NCBI RefSeq assembly: GCF_003002815.1
Contig: NZ_PVTF01000004.1
Location: 434,001-498,000 of the forward strand
From: Umezawaea tangerina
GTDB taxonomy: Bacteria; Actinomycetota; Actinomycetes; Mycobacteriales; Pseudonocardiaceae
DNA: 64,000 nucleotides
Direction: 5' to 3'
Made by a program: the position numbers and the translations under genes. The notes under the pieces were generated by a model, which saw only the letters and a list, made by a program, of their open reading frames with translations, was not told the origin of the DNA and did no database searches. This document shows positions 5,259 through 59,390 of the stretch, one piece after another (positions within the stretch are counted from its first letter, which is position 1; every line of letters begins with the position of its first letter).

Positions 5259-6014
5259 TCAGAAGAGGCCGTTGTCGTGCGGGAGGGCGCTCGGGACGGG
5301 GGCGATGACGTCCCAGTGCTCGACGATCTTGCCGTCGGCCACGCGGAACAGGTCCCAGTACGCGACCGGGTCGCCGAACTCGCCCTCGGACTGGAGCAGC
5401 ACCAGGTCGCCCTCGGCGACGACCCGGTGGACGGTCTTGTAGACCAGGTTCTTGCCCTGCTCGGCCCAGGTCGCCGCGGCGGCGCCGAAGCCCGCGAGGC
5501 CGTCGGCCGCCTCGGGGTTGTGCTGGTCGTAGCGCTCGGTCGAGATGTAGTCCGTGAGCACCGAGTAGTCGGCGTCGACCAGCACCCGCTGGGCGAACTC
5601 GGTGACGAGGGCGCGGTTCCGCTCGGTCTTGTCCAGGTCGGCCGGCGCGCCGGGGCCGTCGGTCTGGGTGCGGCCGCTGGCGGTGCGCGCCACGACCGGG
5701 GTCAGCCCGTCCCAGTGCTCGGCCAGCTTGCCGTCCTCGACGCGGAAGAGGTCGAAGGCGACCAGCGGCGTCGGGCCGAAGCCGTGGTAGGTGCCGTGCA
5801 GGGCGACGAGGTCGCCGTCCGCGATGACGCGTGCGCCCTCGTAGCGGAAGTCCGCGGGCAGGGAGGCGACGAGGCCGCGCAGGGCGTCCGGGCCGTCGGC
5901 CGCCAGTGAGCTGTGCTGCCGGTAGGTGGGCGAGACCCAGCGGTCTACGGCGGAGGGGTCGCGGTCGCCGAACAGCTCGCCCGCGGCTTGGCCGACCAGG
6001 TTCTTGTTGTCCAT
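5259..6014 (-). CDS. Tandem SnoaL-like (NTF2-fold) protein
   Basis: A 251-residue protein made of two homologous SnoaL-like halves. Each half ends in a matching strand: VAFDLFRVEDGKLAEHWDGL in the first, YWDLFRVADGKIVEHWDVI in the second. Each also carries a Y-x-QH-type segment (TYRQHSSLAADG, RYDQHNPEAADG). This fold covers polyketide cyclases, hydratases and many proteins of unknown substrate. The ATG at 6014 gives a start directly on domain one. It is divergent from the AraC regulator at 6099, and the 84-bp spacer between them makes regulation by that protein likely. No purine-rich ribosome site is visible. Confidence 0.85.
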   Translation of the reverse strand: MDNKNLVGQAAGELFGDRDPSAVDRWVSPTYRQHSSLAADGPDALRGLVASLPADFRYEGARVIADGDLVALHGTYHGFGPTPLVAFDLFRVEDGKLAEHWDGLTPVVARTASGRTQTDGPGAPADLDKTERNRALVTEFAQRVLVDADYSVLTDYISTERYDQHNPEAADGLAGFGAAAATWAEQGKNLVYKTVHRVVAEGDLVLLQSEGEFGDPVAYWDLFRVADGKIVEHWDVIAPVPSALPHDNGLF

Positions 6015-6098
6015 GGGAGGAAGTCCGTTTCGTGAGGAGGAACGAGGACAACGATCGACCGAACCGGCCTCGACCACGAGGTAGGATCCGGCAGCACC

Positions 6099-6953
6099 AT
6101 GGTGAAAAGTGGACAAGTCAGCGAGTTCGGCTTCAGCAACCCCGACCGGCGGCACCTCGGCGTCGAAGTGGTGGACTTCGGCCGGATGACCAGAAGGCTG
6201 CCTGCGAGGACGCTGTCCAGCGTGCACCGGACGGACTTCCACCAGGTCTTCCTGATCACCGGCGGCAGCGGCGAGATGATGGTCGATTTCGTCGACCACC
6301 CCTGCGTCGCGGGCACGCTGCTGCACGTTGCCCCCGGCCGCGTCCTGCGCCTCCCGCCGCCGGGGCTGGAGGCGACCGTGGTGCTGTTCACCGCCACCTT
6401 CCCGCCCCGGCTGGACCGGGCGGGGTCCCTGCTCGCCTCGTTCGGCCCGGTCGGCTGGACGGTCCCGCCCGACGAACGGCGGACCGTGGTCGCCGCCGCG
6501 GCGGAGCTGCACGCCGAGTACCGCCGGGCGGTCCAACGGCCGCGGGCCATCACCGTCGACCTCCTGCGGCACCTGCTGGGAGCCCTGCTGCTCCGCGTCG
6601 CCCGGCTGGCCCCGGAGGACGAGGAGCAGCGGCACGACGCGTTCCACCGCTTCCGGCACGAGCTGGAGCGGTCGTTCGCCACGACCCGCAACGCTGCGGA
6701 CTACGCCGCCCGAGTCGGCTACTCACCGCGCACCCTGAACCGGGTCTGCCTCCAGGCGACCGGCCGGACCGCCAAGGCGCTGGTCGACGCCAGGGTCGCG
6801 CTGGAGGCCAAGCGCCTGCTGGCCGACACCGACCTGTCCGTCGCGGCGGTCGGGGCCCGGCTGGGCTTCACCGAGCCGACGAACTTCGGCAAGTTCTTCA
6901 CCCGCGAGACCGGTGCCACGCCCGGCGCGTTCCGGGCGCGGGAACGCACCTGA
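6099..6953 (+). CDS. AraC-family transcriptional regulator
   Basis: A 284-residue regulator. The N-terminal cupin-like sensor half (about 1-160) contains FHQVFLITGGSGEMMVDFVDH. The C-terminal AraC DNA-binding domain has two helix-turn-helix units, the first around ATTRNAADYAARVGYSPRTL and the second around DLSVAAVGARLGFTEPTNFG, followed by the usual KFFTRETGATPGAFR ending. The divergent arrangement with the SnoaL-like gene suggests it controls that gene, perhaps with itself. The effector is unknown. Confidence 0.9.
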   Translation: MVKSGQVSEFGFSNPDRRHLGVEVVDFGRMTRRLPARTLSSVHRTDFHQVFLITGGSGEMMVDFVDHPCVAGTLLHVAPGRVLRLPPPGLEATVVLFTATFPPRLDRAGSLLASFGPVGWTVPPDERRTVVAAAAELHAEYRRAVQRPRAITVDLLRHLLGALLLRVARLAPEDEEQRHDAFHRFRHELERSFATTRNAADYAARVGYSPRTLNRVCLQATGRTAKALVDARVALEAKRLLADTDLSVAAVGARLGFTEPTNFGKFFTRETGATPGAFRARERT

Positions 6954-40459: not shown

Positions 40460-41713
40460 GTGTCGGATCGCATCGCGCAGTTCACCGCCGAGGCGGAGCA
40501 GGACCCGACGGCCGCCGTCGAACGGCTGCGGGCCGACCTGGTCGCGTCCGGCGGGCCGCTGGTCCAGCGGCTGACCGAGGCCACCGTGCGGGTGACGTTC
40601 GTGTGGATCGGGCCCGAGCGGCAGGTGTCCGTGCGGGCGCAGGTGTTCGAGGACGCCAACGCGCTGTCGCACCCGATGCGCCAGGTGCCGGGCACGCCCG
40701 TGTGGCACCTCGACGCGGTCGTGGCGTCCGACGTGGTCACGACCTACCAGTTCCTGGTCGACGACCCGTTCGCCGACGCCGACCACACCGACCTCGCGGA
40801 GCTGGGGCGGCTGATGGTGCGGGCGCGGGCCAGGACGTTCGCCGACCCGGTCAACCCGCACGCGCTGTTCCCGCAGCTGGCCGTCGTCGCGGGCGAGTCG
40901 ACGGCGGACCGGCGGCACTGGGACTCCGAGCTCCGGCTGCCCGACGCCGAGGCCGTCGACTGGTTCGACGCCGAGCCCGCCGACCGCGGCACGCTCACCG
41001 CGCACGACCTGCACGGGCGGACGATCACCGTGTACACGCCGCCGGGCTACCGGGAGGACCGGGCGCACCCGCTGGTCGTGCTGCTCGACGGCGAGTGCTG
41101 GCCGCTGGTCGCCCGGCTCGACACGGCGCTGGACAACCTGATGGGCCGCGAGATCGAGCCCGCCGTGGTCGCGATGGTGCACAACAAGGGCGGGATGGCG
41201 GGGCGGATGGCCGACCTGTCCTGCGAACCGGCCTTCGCCACCTACCTGGCCGAGGACGTTCTCGTGTTCGTGCGGGCGCGGTACTCGGTGAGCGACGACA
41301 CCAGCCGGGTCGTGTTGGCGGGCAACAGCCTCGGCGGACTGGCCGCCGCGCACACCGCGCTGGAACGGCCCGACGCGTTCGGCGCCGTCCTGTCCTGCTC
41401 CGGGTCGCACTGGTGGGGCTACCGGCCCGACGAATCGGGCTGGGGCAAGGACTCCGAGCCGGAATGGCTCACCCGCCAGTACGCCAGGGCACCGCTGCTG
41501 CCGCTGCGGTTCTGGGTCGACGTGGGGTCGCTGGAGACCGGGTCGAGCCCGCTCTCCCCCGGCGTCGACCAGCGCGCCGCCAACCGCCACCTGCGCACCG
41601 TGCTGCGCGCCAGGGGCTACCCCGTCACCTACCACGAGGCGGCGGGCGGGCACGACTTCGCCACGTTCCGCCGCAGCGTCGTCAAAGGGCTCCGCGCCCT
41701 GCTCCCCGCCTGA
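40460..41713 (+). CDS. Enterochelin-esterase-like serine hydrolase
   Basis: A 417-residue Fes/IroD-like esterase. The N-terminal Ig-like domain (about 1-170) contains VRVTFVWIGPERQ and TYQFLVDDPFAD. The catalytic alpha/beta domain has VYTPPGYRED, VVLLDGECWP, the nucleophile in AGNSLGGLAAAH and the His in AAGGHDFATFRR. Family members open siderophore trilactones or other esters. Here it sits with a Vat-type acetyltransferase under a TetR repressor rather than with siderophore genes, so a role in breaking down an ester antibiotic is a fair guess but not shown. Confidence 0.9.
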   Translation: MSDRIAQFTAEAEQDPTAAVERLRADLVASGGPLVQRLTEATVRVTFVWIGPERQVSVRAQVFEDANALSHPMRQVPGTPVWHLDAVVASDVVTTYQFLVDDPFADADHTDLAELGRLMVRARARTFADPVNPHALFPQLAVVAGESTADRRHWDSELRLPDAEAVDWFDAEPADRGTLTAHDLHGRTITVYTPPGYREDRAHPLVVLLDGECWPLVARLDTALDNLMGREIEPAVVAMVHNKGGMAGRMADLSCEPAFATYLAEDVLVFVRARYSVSDDTSRVVLAGNSLGGLAAAHTALERPDAFGAVLSCSGSHWWGYRPDESGWGKDSEPEWLTRQYARAPLLPLRFWVDVGSLETGSSPLSPGVDQRAANRHLRTVLRARGYPVTYHEAAGGHDFATFRRSVVKGLRALLPA

Positions 41714-48620: not shown

Positions 48621-49994
48621 GTGCGGCACTTCGACCTCGTCATCATCGGCAGCGGCTCCGGGAACTCGATCCCCGACGAGCGCTTCGCCGACCAGCGGAT
48701 CGCGATCGTCGAGAAGGGCGTGTTCGGCGGGACGTGCCTCAACGTCGGCTGCATCCCGACGAAGATGTTCGTGCACACCGCGGACGTCGCCTCGACGCCG
48801 AAGAACGCCGCGAGGTTCGGCGTGGACGAGCACTTGGACGGCGTGCGCTGGGCGGACGTGCGGGACCGGATCTTCGGGCGGATCGACCCGATCTCGGCGG
48901 GCGGGCTGCGCTGGCGGGCCGAGGACAACGAGAACGTGACCGTGTACCAGGGGCTCGCGAAGTTCGTCGGGCCGAAGACGCTGGACACCGGCACGGGTGA
49001 GGTCATCACCGCGGACCGGTTCGCGATCGGCGCGGGCAGCAGGCCGGTCATCCCGGACGTGGTCGACCTCGACACCGTCGACTACCACACCAGCGACACC
49101 GTGATGCGGCTCGACGAGCTGCCCGCGAGCATGGTCATCCTGGGCAGCGGGTTCGTCGCGAACGAGTTCGCGCACGTGTTCTCCTCGTTCGGCGTCAAGG
49201 TCACCCTGATCGCCCGCTCGGACCTGTTGCTGCGCCACGAGGACCGCGAGATCGCGGAGCGGTTCACCTCCATCGCCTCGGCGAAGTGGGACGTCCGGCT
49301 CAAGCGCAAGACCGTGCGCGCCGAGCGCACCGACACCGGTGTGCGGCTGCACCTGGAGGGCCCGGACGGCGCCGAGGTCGTGGAGGCCGCCACGCTGCTG
49401 GTCGCCGTCGGCCGCACCCCCAACACCGACCTGCTCGACCTCGCGCGGACCGGTGTGACCACGCACCCGGACGGCCGGATCGTGGTGGACGAGCACCAGA
49501 AGACCGTGGTGGACGGCATCTACGCGTTCGGCGACATCAGCTCCGAGCACCAGCTCAAGCACGTCGCCAACCACGAGAGCAAGGTCGTGCAGCACAACCT
49601 GCTGCACCCCGACGAGCCCAGGTCCTCCGACCACCGGTACGTGCCGTCGGCGGTGTTCTCCTCGCCGCAGATCGCCTCCGTCGGCCTCACCGAGGAGCAG
49701 GCCGTCGAGCGGGGCGTGCGGTACGTGAAGGGCACCCAGGCCTACGCGTCCATCGCCTACGGCTGGGCCATGGAGGACGAGACCGGCTTCGCCAAGGTCC
49801 TCGCCGACCCGGCGACCGGGCAGCTGCTGGGCGCCCACATCATCGGCCCGCAGGCCCCCACCGTCATCCAGCCCCTCATCCAGGCCATGAGCTTCGGCCT
49901 CGACGCCCGCACCATGGCCAAGGGCCAGTACTGGATCCACCCGGCCATGCCGGAGCTCGTCGAGAACGCCCTGCTCAACCTGCCGTTGGACTGA
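48621..49994 (+). CDS. mtr: Mycothione reductase
   Basis: A 457-residue FAD-dependent pyridine nucleotide-disulfide oxidoreductase that reduces oxidised mycothiol (mycothione) with NADPH. FAD motif DLVIIGSGSGNS, redox-active disulfide GGTCLNVGCIPTK, NAD(P) motif VILGSGFVANEFAHVF, and C-terminal His-Glu pair in YWIHPAMPELVENAL. Mtr-specific features are the GSGSGNSIPDERF start and the RWAEDNENVTVYQG-type region. Mycothiol is restricted to Actinobacteria, so this supports the taxonomic call. The start is GTG 48621. A hairpin lies directly downstream. Confidence 0.94.
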   Translation: MRHFDLVIIGSGSGNSIPDERFADQRIAIVEKGVFGGTCLNVGCIPTKMFVHTADVASTPKNAARFGVDEHLDGVRWADVRDRIFGRIDPISAGGLRWRAEDNENVTVYQGLAKFVGPKTLDTGTGEVITADRFAIGAGSRPVIPDVVDLDTVDYHTSDTVMRLDELPASMVILGSGFVANEFAHVFSSFGVKVTLIARSDLLLRHEDREIAERFTSIASAKWDVRLKRKTVRAERTDTGVRLHLEGPDGAEVVEAATLLVAVGRTPNTDLLDLARTGVTTHPDGRIVVDEHQKTVVDGIYAFGDISSEHQLKHVANHESKVVQHNLLHPDEPRSSDHRYVPSAVFSSPQIASVGLTEEQAVERGVRYVKGTQAYASIAYGWAMEDETGFAKVLADPATGQLLGAHIIGPQAPTVIQPLIQAMSFGLDARTMAKGQYWIHPAMPELVENALLNLPLD

Positions 49995-50000
49995 CCGCCG

Positions 50001-50033
50001 GTGTGACGGGGGCGGCGCACGCCCCCGTCACAC
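50001..50033. terminator. Bidirectional hairpin overlapping the MFS stop codon
   Basis: Perfect 13-bp stem (GTGTGACGGGGGC with its complement) and a 7-nt loop between the convergent mtr and MFS genes. The right arm contains the MFS stop codon. Confidence 0.8.
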
Positions 50034-51296
50034 GAAGCGGTTCCTGCCCGCCACCGAACCCAGTGCGGTGAGCAGCAGGACGAGGCCGGCGAGGCCGATC
50101 ATCGACGCCGTCCACGAGCCCGTGGACTCGCGGAGCAACCCGAAGGCGAACGGGCCCGCGGCAGCGATGAGGTAGCCGATGCTCTGGGTCATGGCGGACA
50201 GCCGCGCGGTGTCCGAAGTGGACACCGTGCGCAGCGAGACCATGACCAGTGCCAAGGGGAACATGCCGCCCATGCCCAGGCCGACCAGGAGCACCCACAG
50301 CGCGGGGGCGGAGCCCGGTGCGAACGCCAGGCCGAGCACGCCGGACAGCGAGAGCGCGCCGAGCACGAGGACCATGCCGACCTGGGACTTCCAGCGGGCG
50401 GCCAGCGGCGGCACGACGAGGCTGACCGGGACGCCGAGGACGACGGTGATGGCGAGCAGGAAGCCCGCGGTGGTGCGGTCCACGTCGGCGTCGCCGAGGA
50501 TCGCGGGCAGCCAGCCCATGATCGTGTAGGCGAGCAGCGCCTGGAGCCCGAAGAACACCGTCATCACCCACGCCAGCGGGCTGTGCAGCAACGACCGGCC
50601 CGCGGGCGTGCGCGCCACGCGGCCCGTCACGCCCTTGCGCGCCCCGGCCAGCCACAGCACGAGCGCGGCCGCCGACAGCAGCGCCCACGCGCCGACCGCG
50701 CCCCGCCACGAGCCCAGCAGCGCCTCCAGCGGTGGTGTCAGCGCGGCCCCGAGTCCGGCCCCGGCGGCCATCGCGGCCGTGTAGATGCCGGTGATCAGCC
50801 CGATCCGGGTGGGGAACGAGTCCTTGACCACGACCGGGATCAGGACGTTGCAGACGGCGATGCCCGCGCACGCGACGAACGTGCCGCCGAGGACCACGAA
50901 CGGGCCGTCGACGACCCGCAGGAGCAGTCCGAGGGTCAGCAGCGCGAGCGCGGAGGCGACCGCGCGCTTGAGGCCGAACCGCCGGCCGACCCACGGGGCG
51001 GCGAACGCGGCGGCGCCGAAGCACAGGACCGGGACGGCGGTCAGGAGGCTGGTCCAGCCCGCGGACACACCGAGCCCGGCCCGGACGTCACCGAGCACCG
51101 AAGCGAGACTGGTTACAGCGGGTCGTAGGTTTGCCGCCGAAAGAGTGACACCGGCTGCCAACAGGAGGCCGCCGGTTACCGCCAGTTGCCGGTGTCGTCC
51201 TACGGGTTCAACCACTCCTAGTGCTTGAACCGTCGCGCAATCACCACGATCGGTGGCAGTGTTGTCACTCGACGGTATCGGCTTCGGAATCGTCAC
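50028..51296 (-). CDS. MFS transporter, CynX/NimT family
   Basis: A 422-residue, 12-helix major-facilitator protein of the CynX/NimT group (cyanate or nitroimidazole transporters). It opens with AAGVTLSAANLRPAVTSL, typical of the group; the motif-A-like loop is PWVGRRFGLKRAVASA, and GIYTAAMAAGAGLGAALTPP and FALVMVSLRT-like segments follow. Its substrate is unknown. It is divergent from a FadR-type GntR regulator, an arrangement seen often for this transporter family. The start is GTG 51296. Confidence 0.9.
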   Translation of the reverse strand: MTIPKPIPSSDNTATDRGDCATVQALGVVEPVGRHRQLAVTGGLLLAAGVTLSAANLRPAVTSLASVLGDVRAGLGVSAGWTSLLTAVPVLCFGAAAFAAPWVGRRFGLKRAVASALALLTLGLLLRVVDGPFVVLGGTFVACAGIAVCNVLIPVVVKDSFPTRIGLITGIYTAAMAAGAGLGAALTPPLEALLGSWRGAVGAWALLSAAALVLWLAGARKGVTGRVARTPAGRSLLHSPLAWVMTVFFGLQALLAYTIMGWLPAILGDADVDRTTAGFLLAITVVLGVPVSLVVPPLAARWKSQVGMVLVLGALSLSGVLGLAFAPGSAPALWVLLVGLGMGGMFPLALVMVSLRTVSTSDTARLSAMTQSIGYLIAAAGPFAFGLLRESTGSWTASMIGLAGLVLLLTALGSVAGRNRFV

Positions 51297-51343
51297 TCGA
51301 CTACTGTCTCAGACGTGGGATGTTCGGATGAAAGGACTTTGCT

Positions 51344-52012
51344 GTGCCATTGGCCACTACCCGGCGGGCGGGCCTCGTCGATCAGGTGATCGACCAGATG
51401 AGGGGTGCGATCAGCGGCGGTGAATGGCCGGTGGGCCGCCGCATCCCGCCGGAACCCGAACTCGTCGCGGCACTCGGGGTGGGGCGCAACACGGTCCGCG
51501 AGGCCGTCCGCGCGCTGTCCCACGCCGGACTGCTGGAGGTGCGGCAGGGCGACGGCACGTTCGTCCGCGCCACGAGCGAGATATCCGGCGCGGTCCGCAG
51601 GCTCTGCGGCAACGAGCTCCGCGAAGTGCTCCAGGTGCGCCGCACGCTCGAGGTCGAGGGCGCCCGGCTGGCCGCGACCCACCGCACCGACGACGACCTG
51701 CGCAGGCTGACCACGCTGCTGGCCGAGCGCGACGCCGCCATGGCGGCCAAGGACTGGGAGCGGATGATCGAGCACGACGCCGCCTTCCACGGGCTCCTCG
51801 TGCAAGCGTCGCACAACACGCTGCTGTCCGAGCTGTACCGCGGTCTCAACGAGACCGTGCGGGCGAGCATCACCGCGACCGTCGACGAGGACCTGGACAA
51901 CCAGGTGTCGCACACCGGCCTGCTCGACGCCGTGCGCGACCGCGACCCGGTGCGCGCCGCGGCCGAGGCAAGCGGTTTCCTGGAGGACATCCTGCAGCGG
52001 ACGGCCGAGTGA
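51344..52012 (+). CDS. GntR-family regulator, FadR/FCD subgroup
   Basis: A 222-residue regulator. The winged HTH is at about 10-75 (VGRRIPPEPELVAALGVGRNTVREAVRALSHAGLLEVRQ, in which VGRNTVREAVRAL is the recognition helix region). The FCD effector domain (about 95-220) has metal-binding positions in EHDAAFHGLLVQASHN and HTGLLDAVRDRD. It is divergent from the MFS gene. Ten-base repeats GTCACTCGAC at 51264 and 51292 in the spacer could be its binding sites. The epoxide hydrolase gene begins 39 bp downstream and may share its control. Confidence 0.92.
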   Translation: MPLATTRRAGLVDQVIDQMRGAISGGEWPVGRRIPPEPELVAALGVGRNTVREAVRALSHAGLLEVRQGDGTFVRATSEISGAVRRLCGNELREVLQVRRTLEVEGARLAATHRTDDDLRRLTTLLAERDAAMAAKDWERMIEHDAAFHGLLVQASHNTLLSELYRGLNETVRASITATVDEDLDNQVSHTGLLDAVRDRDPVRAAAEASGFLEDILQRTAE

Positions 52013-52051
52013 GACCGCGGACCGGAGATGTCCGCTCCTAGGGTGGAGGTC

Positions 52052-53143
52052 ATGGAGCCCTACCGCATCGAGATCCCGCAGTCCCGGCTGGACGACCTCG
52101 CCGCCCGGCTCGCCAACACCCGTTGGCCCGCCGAACCCGAGGGCACCGGCTGGCGCGACGGCGTGCCCGTCGCGTACCTGAAGGACCTCGTCGAGCACTG
52201 GCGCACGCGCTACGACTGGCGGGCCTGGGAAGCGCGGCTCAACGAGTACCCCCAGTTCACGACCACCATCGACGGCGCGAACATCCACTTCCTGCACGTC
52301 CGCTCCGCCCGCGAGGACGCCCTGCCGCTGATCCTCACGCACGGGTGGCCGGGATCCGTCGTCGAGTTCCTGGACGTCGTCGAACCGCTGGCGCGGGACC
52401 ACCACCTGGTCATCCCGTCGATGCCGAACTACGGGTTCTCCGGGCCCACCGCGGACACCGGCTGGGACGTGCGGCGCATCGCGGGCGCGTGGGCCGAGCT
52501 GATGGCGCGCCTCGGCTACGACCGCTACGGCGCGCAGGGCGGCGACTGGGGGTCGCTCGTCTCGCGCGAACTGGGGATCATCGACGCCGGGCACGTGGTC
52601 GGCGTGCACCTGACCATGCTGCTCACGTTCCCGACCGGCGGCGTCGAGGGGCTGACCGAGGACGACCTCGAACGGCTGAGGGCGTTCAGGCACTTCGCCG
52701 ACGACGGGTCGGGCTACCAGCGCATCCAGGGCACCAGGCCGCAGACGCTCGGCTACGGCCTGACCGACTCGCCCGTCGGGCAGCTCGCGTGGATCGTGGA
52801 GAAGTTCAAGGAGTGGACCGACTCAGAGGACGTGCCGGAGGACGCCGTCGACCGCGACCTCCTGCTCACCAACGTGATGGTCTACTGGCTGACCGGCACC
52901 GCGGCGTCGTCCGCGCGGCTGTACAAGGAGTCCGCCGGGTCCGCGGGGAGGGTCGAGGCGTCGACGACCCCCACCGCGGTGGCCGTGTTCCCGAAGGAGG
53001 TCGTGCGGCCGGTGCGGTCGATCGCCGAGAGGACGAACCGGATCGTCCGGTGGACCGAGCTCGACCGCGGTGGCCACTTCGCCGCCATGGAACAGCCGGA
53101 GCTGCTGGTCGACGACGTCCGCGCCTTCTTCCGGAGCCTGTAG
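52052..53143 (+). CDS. Epoxide hydrolase (microsomal-type, EHN domain)
   Basis: A 363-residue alpha/beta-hydrolase epoxide hydrolase. The N-terminal EHN domain is shown by [20 protein letters not shown] and [20 protein letters not shown]. The catalytic domain has the oxyanion motif THGWPGS, the nucleophile Asp in [10 protein letters not shown], and the His in [14 protein letters not shown]. It opens epoxides to diols. ATG 52052 has a TAGGGT box at 52039-52044, 7 nt upstream, fitting a leaderless transcript; ATG 52028 is the alternative. Its stop abuts the next start with no gap, so the AlkZ-like gene is translationally coupled. Confidence 0.92.
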
Positions 53144-54211
53144 ATGCCGACCGCCAGAACGCTCAACCGCACCCTGCTGGCCAGGCAGCTGCTGCTGGAC
53201 CGGCACGACCTGCGGCCCGACCAGGCGATCGAGCACCTGGTCGGGCTGCAGGCGCAGGCCACCGCATCCCCCTACGTGGCCCTGTGGTCGCGTCTGACGG
53301 GCTTCACCGCCGATCGGGTGGGCACGATGCTGGAGGACCGCTCCGCGGTCCGCACGACGCTCATGCGCGGCACCCTGCACCTCGTCACGGCCCGCGACTG
53401 CGCACGGCTGCGTCCCGCCATGCAGCCGATGCTGGACCGCGTCGCCAGAACCAACTTCGGCCGCGACCTCACCGGCGTCGACCTGGCCGCCCTCGTCGAA
53501 GCCGCGCTCCCCCTGCTCACCGAACCCCGGACCACCGCCCAGCTCGGCGCCGCACTGGCACCCCGCTGGCCCGACCACCAGCCCCGCGTGCTCGGCGCCG
53601 TCCTCCCACTGCTGCTGCCCGTGGTCCAGATCCCACCCCGCGGCATCCTCGGCCGCGGCGGACCCGCCGCCAACGCGCTCGCGTCGACCTGGCTCGGCAC
53701 CGATATCCCGGCACCGGAACCCCCGGACTCCGCAATATTGCGGTATCTCGCGGCTTTCGGCCCCGCGACCGCCGCCGACATCTCGGCGTGGTCGCGACTG
53801 ACCGGCGTGAAATCCGTCATCACCCGAATGGACCTGAAGACCTACCGCGACGAAACGGGCCGAACCCTCCTCGACCACCCCGACGCCGACCTCACCGACC
53901 CGGAAACCCCCGCCCCGCCCCGATTCCTCCCCGAGTTCGACAACGTCCTGCTCTCCCACGCCGACCGCACCCGCATCATGGGCGACGAGGACCGCAAGCG
54001 CTGGAGCGGCGTCGCCAACGCCGTGTTCCCCGCCAGCTTCCTGCTCGACGGGTTCCTCAGCGGGACGTGGAAGGTCGACCGCGGCACGCTGGCGATCACG
54101 CCCTACCGCAAGGTGTCCACTGGGGACAGGCGGGCTCTAGAACGGGAAGGCTTGGCACTGCTGGACTTCCTCGCCCCCCAGCACGACCACGCCATCCACT
54201 TCACCACCTGA
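53144..54211 (+). CDS. HTH_42/AlkZ-like DNA glycosylase
   Basis: A 355-residue winged-helix protein of the HTH_42 (DUF1006) superfamily that includes AlkZ, a glycosylase unhooking azinomycin interstrand crosslinks. Near the N-terminus is LVGLQAQATASP, with Gln36-Ala37-Gln38 fitting the catalytic QxQ motif of the AlkZ-like subgroup. Further family segments are TLMRGTLHLVTARDCARLRP and the C-terminal VLLSHADRTRI with FLLDGFLSGTWKV. The start ATG directly follows the epoxide hydrolase stop. The substrate is likely a bulky alkylated or crosslinked base; this is inferred from family and motif. Confidence 0.85.
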   Translation: MPTARTLNRTLLARQLLLDRHDLRPDQAIEHLVGLQAQATASPYVALWSRLTGFTADRVGTMLEDRSAVRTTLMRGTLHLVTARDCARLRPAMQPMLDRVARTNFGRDLTGVDLAALVEAALPLLTEPRTTAQLGAALAPRWPDHQPRVLGAVLPLLLPVVQIPPRGILGRGGPAANALASTWLGTDIPAPEPPDSAILRYLAAFGPATAADISAWSRLTGVKSVITRMDLKTYRDETGRTLLDHPDADLTDPETPAPPRFLPEFDNVLLSHADRTRIMGDEDRKRWSGVANAVFPASFLLDGFLSGTWKVDRGTLAITPYRKVSTGDRRALEREGLALLDFLAPQHDHAIHFTT

Positions 54212-57120: not shown

Positions 57121-58645
57121 GCGGCGGGGCACCCGGCGGCAGGAACGGCAGGCCGGACGGGGCTCCGTGCGCGAGCAGGCCGAGCAGGGCTTCGGTGTCC
57201 AGGTGGTCGGCGACGAGGTCGCCGAGCAGGTCGAGCTGGGCGGCGCGGGCGGCGGCGAAGTCGACGTCCGCGGCGGGCTCGAACCCGTCCCGGTCGGCGC
57301 GGGCCGCGGCCCAGCGCAGGAACGCCCGGCGGAACCCGTCGTTCTCCAGCAGGCCGTGCCAGTGCGTGCCCACGACCGACCCGGCGACCGCACCCTCCCC
57401 CGTGCCGTCCGACAGCACCACGAGGCCGTCCTGCCCGCCGTGCCGCACGACCCGGCCGTGGTGGATCTCGTAGCCGGTGACCGGCTCCCCCATGGCCGTG
57501 CCGACCGGGTGGCCCAACGTCTTGTCCGCCTCGAACCGCACGTCCACGTCCAGCAGCCCCAGGCCGTCCACCACGCCCGCGCGGGACTCGACGGCGTCCT
57601 CGACGCGGACGCCGAGCATCTGGAACCCGCCGCAGATCCCCAGCACCGGCAGGCCGCGCCGGGCGTGCGCGGTGATCGCGTCGGCCAGCCCGGTCTCCCG
57701 CAGCCACGCCAGGTCGTCGACGGTGGCCTTGGAACCGGGCAGCACCACCAGGTCCGCGTCGGCGACCCGCGACGGCTCGGTGACGAACCGGACCGACACG
57801 CCCGGCTCGCACGCCAGCGCCTCCACGTCCGTGGCGTTGGAGATCCTGGGCAGCCGGACGACCGCGACCCGCAGCCACTGCTCCCCGACCGGGGGCAGCG
57901 GCCTGCCGATCACGCCGTCCGCGGTGTAGGACAACGAGTCCTCGGCGTCGAGCCACAGCTCCTCGCGCCACGGCAGCACCCCGTACACCGGCCTGCCGGT
58001 GAGCGCCCGCAACTGGCGCAGGCCCGGTTCCAGCAGCGCGGGGTCGCCGCGGAACTTGTTGACCACGAACCCGGTCACCAGCGCCTGGTCGGCGGCGTCG
58101 AGCAGCGCGAGCGTGCCGAACAGGTGCGCGAACACGCCACCGCGGTCGATGTCGCCGACCACCAGCACCGGCAGGTCCGCCGCCCGCGCCAGGCCCATGT
58201 TCGCGATGTCGTTGACCCGCAGGTTGATCTCGGTCGGCGACCCGGCGCCCTCGCAGACCACGACCTCGTGGTCACCGCGCAGCGAGTCCAAAGTGGACAG
58301 CACCGTGCGGAACAGCTCCGCCTTGCGCTCGCGGTAGGACAGCGCCGACACCTCGCCGACCGCGCGACCCAGCACGACCACCTGCGACGTCCGGTCACCG
58401 CCCGGCTTGAGCAGGACCGGGTTGAACCGCACGCTCGGCTCCAGCCCGCACGCGGCGGCCTGCACGGCCTGCGCGCGGCCGATCTCGCCGCCGTCGAGCG
58501 TGACGACCGAGTTGTTCGACATGTTCTGCGCCTTGAACGGCGCCACCCGGACCCCGCGGCGCGCCAGCCAGCGGCAGATCCCCGCCACGAGCACGCTCTT
58601 GCCCGCGTCCGAGGTGGTCCCGGCCACCAGCAGCGCACCCGCCAC
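57113..58645 (-). CDS. cobQ: Cobyric acid synthase
   Basis: A 510-residue glutamine-dependent enzyme that amidates the b, d, e and g side chains of adenosylcobyrinic a,c-diamide. The N-terminal ATPase domain starts [20 protein letters not shown] and has [13 protein letters not shown] and [15 protein letters not shown]. The C-terminal GATase domain has Cys in [10 protein letters not shown] and His in [13 protein letters not shown] 58645 is preceded by GGGGGAG and gives the usual start. It lies outside the riboswitch operon (about 33 kb away), and no B12 element is visible next to it. Confidence 0.96.
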
Positions 58646-58691
58646 GACTGCTCTCCCCCCGATGTCGGTCCCGACTGACATCATTCCCCCC

Positions 58692-59390
58692 ATGGTCGAC
58701 GTTCCCGCCACCACGGTCCTGGTGCACAGCCCCTTCCTCGGACCCGCCACCCTGCGACCGCTCGCCGACGCGCTCTCCGCGCACGGCCACCCCGTGGTGC
58801 TGCTCGACCTGCGGGTGAGCGTGAACTCCGCGCCGGTGCACCAGCGGATGATCGGCGAGTTCGCCGACGCCGTGGACGACTCCGCCGTCGAGGGCGAGCT
58901 GGTGCTCGTCGGCCACAGCGGTGCCGGGCCGCTGCTGCCCGCGTTCGCCGACGCGCTGGAGACCGAGGTGGACGCGCTGGTCTACCTCGACGCCGACCTG
59001 CCGACGCCGGGCAAGAGCTGGCGGGAGACGTTCTCGCCGGAGCTGATGGCGCACATGCGGAAGATCTCCCGCGAGGACGTCATGCCCCGCTGGGACCGCT
59101 GGTTCCCGCCGGAGGTGCTGCCCGCCCTGATCCCGGACCCGGTGCAGCTCGCGGAGATCCTGGAGGAGGCCCCGGAGGTGCCGCTGGCGTTCCTGAAGGA
59201 ACAGCGACCGTCGGTGCCGTGGTCGGGCCCCTCGGCCTACCTCAGGCTCAGCGGCGAGTACACCGACGCGGCCGCCGCCGCACGTGCCGAGGGCTGGCCG
59301 GTCGACGAGCTGGAGCTGCACCACCTGGCGGCGGCGACCCACCCGGAGCAGGTCGCCGCGGCGCTGGTGGAGCTGCTCAGCAGACTGTGA
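58692..59390 (+). CDS. Small alpha/beta hydrolase
   Basis: A 232-residue alpha/beta-fold protein. [20 protein letters not shown] is the first strand with its loop; the nucleophile elbow is GHSGAG near residue 77; the Asp may be in [10 protein letters not shown]; and the terminal [12 protein letters not shown] carries the His. It is similar in size to uncharacterised actinobacterial esterase-like proteins. It is divergent from cobQ across 46 bp and overlaps the convergent map gene by 14 bp. Confidence 0.85.

Follow-up and report, generated by a model that had tools for sequence, protein, structure and literature searches.

What is the function of an epoxide hydrolase (EH) gene that runs directly into a gene for an AlkZ-like DNA glycosylase? 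The question is raised by a locus in a 64,000-nucleotide (nt) stretch of Umezawaea tangerina DNA, the window of this analysis. Open reading frame (ORF) calls were combined with Pfam and TIGRFAM profiles and with genome comparison. A sequence-only reading of the locus had proposed that EH detoxifies an epoxide-bearing alkylator, that the AlkZ-like protein repairs the lesion, and that efflux may add a third layer. It had also made conservation of the pairing a test, and the pairing was found in family and class samples well beyond the window genome. There is about an even chance that EH and AlkZ form an accessory, locally regulated two-gene module for detoxification and repair.

The window contains an MFS gene on the minus strand, followed on the plus strand by a divergent gntR, the EH gene and the AlkZ-like gene. 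The features of the locus are listed here.

50028..51296, minus strand: major facilitator superfamily (MFS) transporter, CynX/NimT-like (PF07690, E 8e-21)
51302..51336, plus strand: conserved promoter/operator-like block 5' of gntR (upstream-region comparison)
51344..52012, plus strand: GntR/FCD transcriptional regulator (PF00392 and PF07729)
52052..53143, plus strand: EHN-type epoxide hydrolase (Pfam, solved-structure matches, alignment)
53133..53136, plus strand: possible ribosome-binding site GGAG of the AlkZ gene, within the 3' end of the EH gene (read from the sequence)
53144..54211, plus strand: AlkZ-like (PF06224) protein, probable DNA glycosylase (profile, alignment, predicted fold)
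53249..53257, plus strand: codons of the QAQ motif, Gln36-Ala37-Gln38 (alignment to AlkZ chain 5uuj)

The EH gene ends with TAG at 53141-53143 and the AlkZ-like gene starts with ATG at 53144-53146, on the very next base, as first described. The MFS and GntR genes also occupy 50028-52012, where they had been placed. GGAG sits 7 bases 5' of this ATG, inside the coding end of EH, and may couple translation of the two genes. The distance from gntR to EH is 39 nt, so co-transcription is plausible.

From its first ATG the EH ORF covers 52028-53143. Homologues start at the ATG at 52052, which is the preferred start. The protein matched EHN (PF06441) at 144.4 bits (gathering threshold 22.8, E 1.7e-42) and Abhydrolase_1 at 42.4 bits (cut-off 25.8, E 8.7e-11). 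The nearest solved chains were 5f4z (E 6e-139) and 4i19 (E 9e-124), each carrying the name epoxide hydrolase and matching over nearly the full length. We know of no glycosylase partner for either, and 4i19 comes from an enediyne producer. The catalytic set is present, with W99, Asp165 (52544-52546), Tyr222, Tyr291, Glu316, His342 and an HGWPG oxyanion motif; we take the roles of these residues to be those of the microsomal and A. niger enzymes. All 25 EH rows of the cassette with MFS and GntR, here called type I, carry W, D, Y, Y, D/E and H at the catalytic columns. The predicted activity is epoxide hydrolysis.

The AlkZ-like protein matched PF06224 ('DNA glycosylase AlkZ-like') at 260.9 bits (gathering threshold 25.9, E 3e-77). 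The predicted structure has the three winged-helix plus beta-domain fold of AlkZ over its full length, with a structure-based identity of 21%. Residues 271-300 were taken, with no residue-by-residue comparison, to hold the beta11/12 DNA-binding loop and had low model block means (87, 72 and 78). The segment LVGLQAQA, with Gln36 and Gln38, had been picked out as the QxQ motif of an HTH_42 protein. This was correct; the motif aligns with QAQ of AlkZ 5uuj, which puts the two glutamines at the AlkZ catalytic position of a protein modelled with that fold. Their catalytic placement was a second test set by the sequence-only reading, and it did not refute that reading. They are invariant in all 38 sequences of set A2 (42-85% identical to the window protein), which were picked from 97 aligned; among those 97, L151 has His at the first position (G, C and L numbers are our handles for genomes, contigs and loci, and f and g numbers for groups of genomes). 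The window protein also has the (Q/H)-aliphatic-Q motif of the AZL (AlkZ-like) subgroup. The fold and the motif point to glycosylase activity. L151 (G285:C505) is a type I cassette AlkZ and carries HAQ, the alternative form in which the AZL motif has been reported. A separate f21 group of AlkZ-like proteins comprises 10 rows (L208-L211, L213-L218); the 8 that were read have QGQ in the catalytic place and not Q-aliphatic-Q.

The order MFS, divergent GntR, EH, AlkZ was found in all three genomes sampled from the genus. The family sample comprised 297 genomes and was counted on the best 150 AlkZ and best 150 EH rows, so weaker pairs were missed. EH and AlkZ lay within 5 kb in at least 27 of the 297 (three g1 genomes, 23 g8 genomes and G147), in every case on the same strand with EH first. 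G285, a 24th listed g8 genome, has the pair with EH cut by a contig end. The 24 are those listed among the matches, genomes without a match being only partly listed. Of the g8 genomes, 15 were fetched, all with GntR upstream, and the 8 whose loci extend far enough also showed MFS.

A survey of named genomes was anchored on GntR and covered the best 80 of 129 confirmed loci. MFS was divergent from gntR in 71 of these. Both EH and AlkZ were present in 21 (20 labelled Lentzea, 1 labelled Nocardia), and one Lentzea EH was cut by a contig end. MFS and GntR without EH or AlkZ were found in 45 loci, including L143, which ends 142 nt past gntR so that absence is not visible there. A further 9 had GntR without MFS, EH or AlkZ. 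In 19 of the 21 paired loci EH and AlkZ are 8-20 nt apart. The other two gaps were 1229 and 1361 nt, and both hold an IS605 OrfB/TnpB-type transposase ORF (L092 7877-8953 and L094 7875-9176; Lentzea terrae and L. albidocapillata). One flank consists of PEBP-MTR (MTR, mycothione reductase) and the opposite flank of LysR-EamA-CobQ; both are mostly common to Lentzea, Saccharothrix, Umezawaea, Actinosynnema, and Solihabitans whether the pair is present or not. EH and AlkZ therefore look like an addition to an older GntR-LysR interval, lost afterwards in parts. Two Saccharothrix luteola loci in the survey (L087 and L088) come from one strain, NEAU-S10, and have identical gene positions on two scaffolds, as a duplication or an assembly artefact.

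A second cassette, type II, was found in which the pair is divergent from a WYL regulator. It was present in 7 of 22 genomes of another family, f21, and in G147, which belongs to the window's own family. The WYL domain was confirmed by Pfam in L182, L184, L185, L187 and L222, and by similarity only in L183 and L188 (two-piece match, G505). The WYL-EH-AlkZ trio occurred in three different neighbourhoods. G450 and G355 keep AlkZ and are missing WYL and EH. Among 246 genomes sampled from the class, these 7 f21 genomes and the window's own had the two genes side by side. Flanking EH genes were inspected at 29 loci, one per genome, of the 81 genomes with a match; EH was upstream of AlkZ in 6 and downstream in 1 (G469), and G496 adds one from the tables. 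A rough chance expectation was 0.03 adjacent pairs, against 7 genomes besides the window's; it uses printed copy numbers and assumes 6500 genes per genome, and related genomes are not independent events. In the downstream case, L186 (G469, f20), AlkZ is followed in the same direction by a short-chain dehydrogenase, an EH that lies 877 nt beyond AlkZ, and a P450. This streptomycete-like neighbourhood is a weak separate case and was not counted as a module.

That one ordered pair recurs with two regulators unrelated to each other speaks for a functional link. In the proposed mechanism EH would act first, opening the epoxide of a small-molecule DNA alkylator that has not yet reached DNA. The AlkZ-like glycosylase, probably co-transcribed, would excise the remaining alkylated base and base-excision repair would start. 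The pair would have joined the older MFS/GntR locus in type I, probably under the GntR operator; in type II it stands beside a WYL regulator. Induction, co-transcription and joint action of EH and AlkZ would all be part of this scheme. Polyketide synthase (PKS) and nonribosomal peptide synthetase (NRPS) domains were not found among the 46 called window proteins, with no antiSMASH-type search run, and the agent is more likely environmental (made by neighbours) or metabolic than a product of the window.

The closest known systems were compared with the pair. The window protein resembles AlkZ of the azinomycin B producer and the AZL glycosylases HedH4, TxnU2/U4 and LldU1/U5 in PF06224, the QxQ in place and the AlkZ fold. 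It differs from them in being paired with EH and a local regulator, with no biosynthetic cluster seen around it. YcaQ/AlkX proteins (YQL) have QxD and invariant neighbours (PMC13303869, PMC9040887), whereas the window type has QxQ, a variable sequence and different neighbours. Yatakemycin self-resistance combines export (YtkR6), warhead hydrolysis (YtkR7, a cyclopropane hydrolase) and adduct excision (YtkR2) (PMC9854587, PMC5684135). There, however, YtkR7 is GyrI-like and YtkR2 AlkD-like, the genes belong to a biosynthetic cluster, and the damaged base is an alkylated adenine. The window pair would work along similar lines, with other protein families and outside a cluster, which favours a detoxify-and-repair module. 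Alpha/beta-fold and DinB-type hydrolases have already been noted as neighbours of cluster AZL genes in Streptomyces (mBio 2022, PMC9040887). Those neighbourhoods differ in lying inside clusters, and in the available portion of that source the hydrolases are not named epoxide hydrolases and no ordered two-gene module is described. Characterised AZL enzymes act on epoxide-bearing natural products of their own hosts (PMC9040887, PMC9854587), and cluster enzymes are reported to be highly specific for their own product (PMC9040887, PMC13303869), so sensitivity to azinomycin or mitomycin should not be assumed. No open-licence paper was found that names AlkZ, HTH_42 or the winged-helix family alongside epoxide hydrolase, the subscription literature being outside the search.

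The main rival explanation is that the two genes are neighbours without a joint function, placed at permissive sites and co-inherited. EH would then serve endogenous or xenobiotic epoxide metabolism and AlkZ would deal with unrelated damage. This is possible but was judged the less probable account. A number of results count in its favour or against a module. The two genes are frequently found apart. Of 14 named Saccharothrix loci, 2 have EH by itself and 11 have neither gene; AlkZ stands alone at an Umezawaea GntR-anchored locus. In Saccharothrix carnea (L102 6697-6966) EH fragments remain between gntR and lysR, which is evidence of loss. In f21, 9 of 12 g86 genomes keep an AlkZ that has neither EH nor WYL closer than 1.5 kb, and G479 and G315 keep WYL and EH without an adjacent AlkZ. 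The MFS/GntR pair occurs without EH-AlkZ across much of the family. Type I is also one syntenic locus, so its many genomes represent few events. EH genes are abundant, with at least 6 at E<=1e-60 in the window's genome (only 6 candidates scored), and many must have other jobs. Phe replaces the first active-site Tyr in all 6 f21 type II EH rows, whose chemistry may therefore differ. The MFS protein scored 336 bits against TIGR00896 (CynX), under the family cut-off of 406, and is thus only related to CynX/NimT and not a recognised drug pump. The lack of PKS and NRPS domains in the window belongs to the same side.

Trees were built from deduplicated rows with at least 75% query coverage. The AlkZ tree was built without reference AlkZ or YcaQ, and the EH tree has L039 only among the EH-only Saccharothrix loci and lacks the G505 EH. 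Type I rows and Umezawaea formed one group in the AlkZ tree (97/78). In the EH tree non-cassette EHs fell among type I EHs, again contrary to a module, and a single type I EH clade was not rejected by the approximately unbiased (AU) test (p 0.378). Branches in the backbones of both trees were weak. That types I and II go back to one ancestral pair was neither shown nor rejected (AU p 0.255 for EH of both types together, p 0.299 for AlkZ of both types with unpaired orthologues). Pairwise Nei-Gojobori estimates, not a codon model, gave ratios of nonsynonymous to synonymous rates (dN/dS) between the window genome and G002 of 0.71 for EH, 0.24 for AlkZ and 0.06-0.22 for nine other locus genes. Against G001 the values were 0.36, 0.33 and, for eight other genes, 0.10-0.27. 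The ratio of 0.71 between close genomes could reflect relaxed constraint rather than adaptation, a further point against the module, and positive selection on EH is not claimed. The differences from G002 were concentrated at residues 187-225 (17/39 vs 39/324), a region picked after viewing the alignment and taken to lie near the substrate cap. For the wider region 187-300 p was 0.35 for G002 and 0.0075 for G001.

Mere neighbourhood is opposed by the ordered, same-strand pair. It occurs in four neighbourhoods, with type I included, under regulators that are not related, where chance would give only the small number of adjacent pairs estimated for the class sample. In Lentzea, moreover, short gaps were retained while AlkZ diverged to about 50% identity to the window's. 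The sequence-only reading is supported in part: the conserved pairing and the catalytic glutamines agree with it, while the frequent dissociation and the nature of the transporter do not. For the proposed efflux layer the genes are in place, and their one tie to the pair is the intergenic region shared with the older MFS gene.

Self-resistance was considered unlikely. Here EH and AlkZ would guard against an epoxide genotoxin of the host's own, made by a cluster elsewhere in the genome, as would fit the enrichment of Streptomyces AZL genes in biosynthetic clusters of alkylators (PMC9040887), the enediyne-producing source of the EH structure 4i19, and a SnoaL-like polyketide-cyclase domain protein at 5259-6659, 46 kb from the pair. 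An enterochelin-esterase-like protein is encoded at 40460-41713, and these two proteins alone do not make a cluster. Against self-resistance, the 46 window proteins gave no PKS or NRPS domain, the search for clusters being confined to the window, and the surrounding genes (MTR, LysR, EamA, CobQ, MAP) are conserved and also found in species without the pair. The cluster setting of AlkZ, HedH4 and TxnU was not found for the window gene, whose synteny is kept with those species. It is similarly improbable that the AlkZ-like protein does no repair and instead accompanies or controls EH, as a regulator with winged helices or as a shield bound to DNA. The fold and the reported shielding of DNA by AlkZ (PMC9854587) would fit this, but both catalytic glutamines are invariant in set A2 and each cassette already has its own regulator.

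If the detoxify-and-repair module is real, it would give non-producers a form of resistance in which a genotoxin is destroyed and the damage it leaves is repaired, and it could guide the mining of genomes for epoxide genotoxins still to be discovered. The constant order with EH, under GntR or WYL, predicts an epoxide substrate for a non-cluster AZL glycosylase. It also offers a direct route to that substrate, through the compound that derepresses the regulator, the epoxide opened by EH and the adduct excised by the glycosylase. A bolder version is offered tentatively. The pair may be a stand-alone, relocatable immunity module against neighbour-made epoxide genotoxins, captured separately by GntR/MFS and WYL loci, with both enzymes evolving fast with their targets. 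It would be one case of a broader pattern in which AlkZ-type glycosylases are combined with exchangeable enzymes that remove electrophiles. The second AlkZ-like gene of the window's genome (G000:C2; L149 7280-11101) adds to the idea of coupled detoxification and repair, though from few loci, as it has the same plan with other electrophile-handling enzymes. It closes an apparent operon of a mycothiol-S-transferase (PF04978, E 1e-40), an aldo/keto reductase and AlkZ, with a divergent WYL regulator. The reductase and AlkZ genes overlap in all three genus genomes, and the transferase was seen in the window genome only, short flanks having been searched in the others.

The GntR protein is 76-99% identical to nine counterparts (alignment A1), with a nearly invariant DNA-binding part. 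At 51302-51330 in the window the block upstream of its gene reads TACTGT, a -10-like element, followed by ACGTGGGATGTTCGGATG. Across relatives it takes the form TACTAT..ACATAGGATGTTCGGATGAAAGGA between MFS and gntR, with core half-sites ACAT-N3-ATGT. It was seen by eye in most of 26 printed upstream regions, including species without EH or AlkZ; Amycolatopsis xylanica L113 has a degenerate version, and both Mycobacterium rows have an altered one. The pattern had one site in the window at <=3 mismatches (0.01 in shuffles) and a single further site, with 2 mismatches, in the rest of the genome. The block is a candidate GntR operator, with its half-sites just past the -10-like element. This non-coding block is common to many Pseudonocardiaceae and still recognisable in Mycobacterium. 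MTR (48621-49994 in the window) often neighbours the MFS/GntR pair. Mycothiol handles electrophiles, so it may be speculated that the older MFS/GntR locus itself serves electrophile export.

The 46 window ORFs were called by a codon-bias filter and all were scanned, as sets of 6, 30 (E<=1e-8) and 10 (E<=1e-5). The proteins belong mostly to housekeeping families. A flanking ORF at 58407-59390, labelled ABH2 by us, had no Pfam match. A third, more distant AlkZ-like gene is present in the window's genome at G000:C12 (L150).
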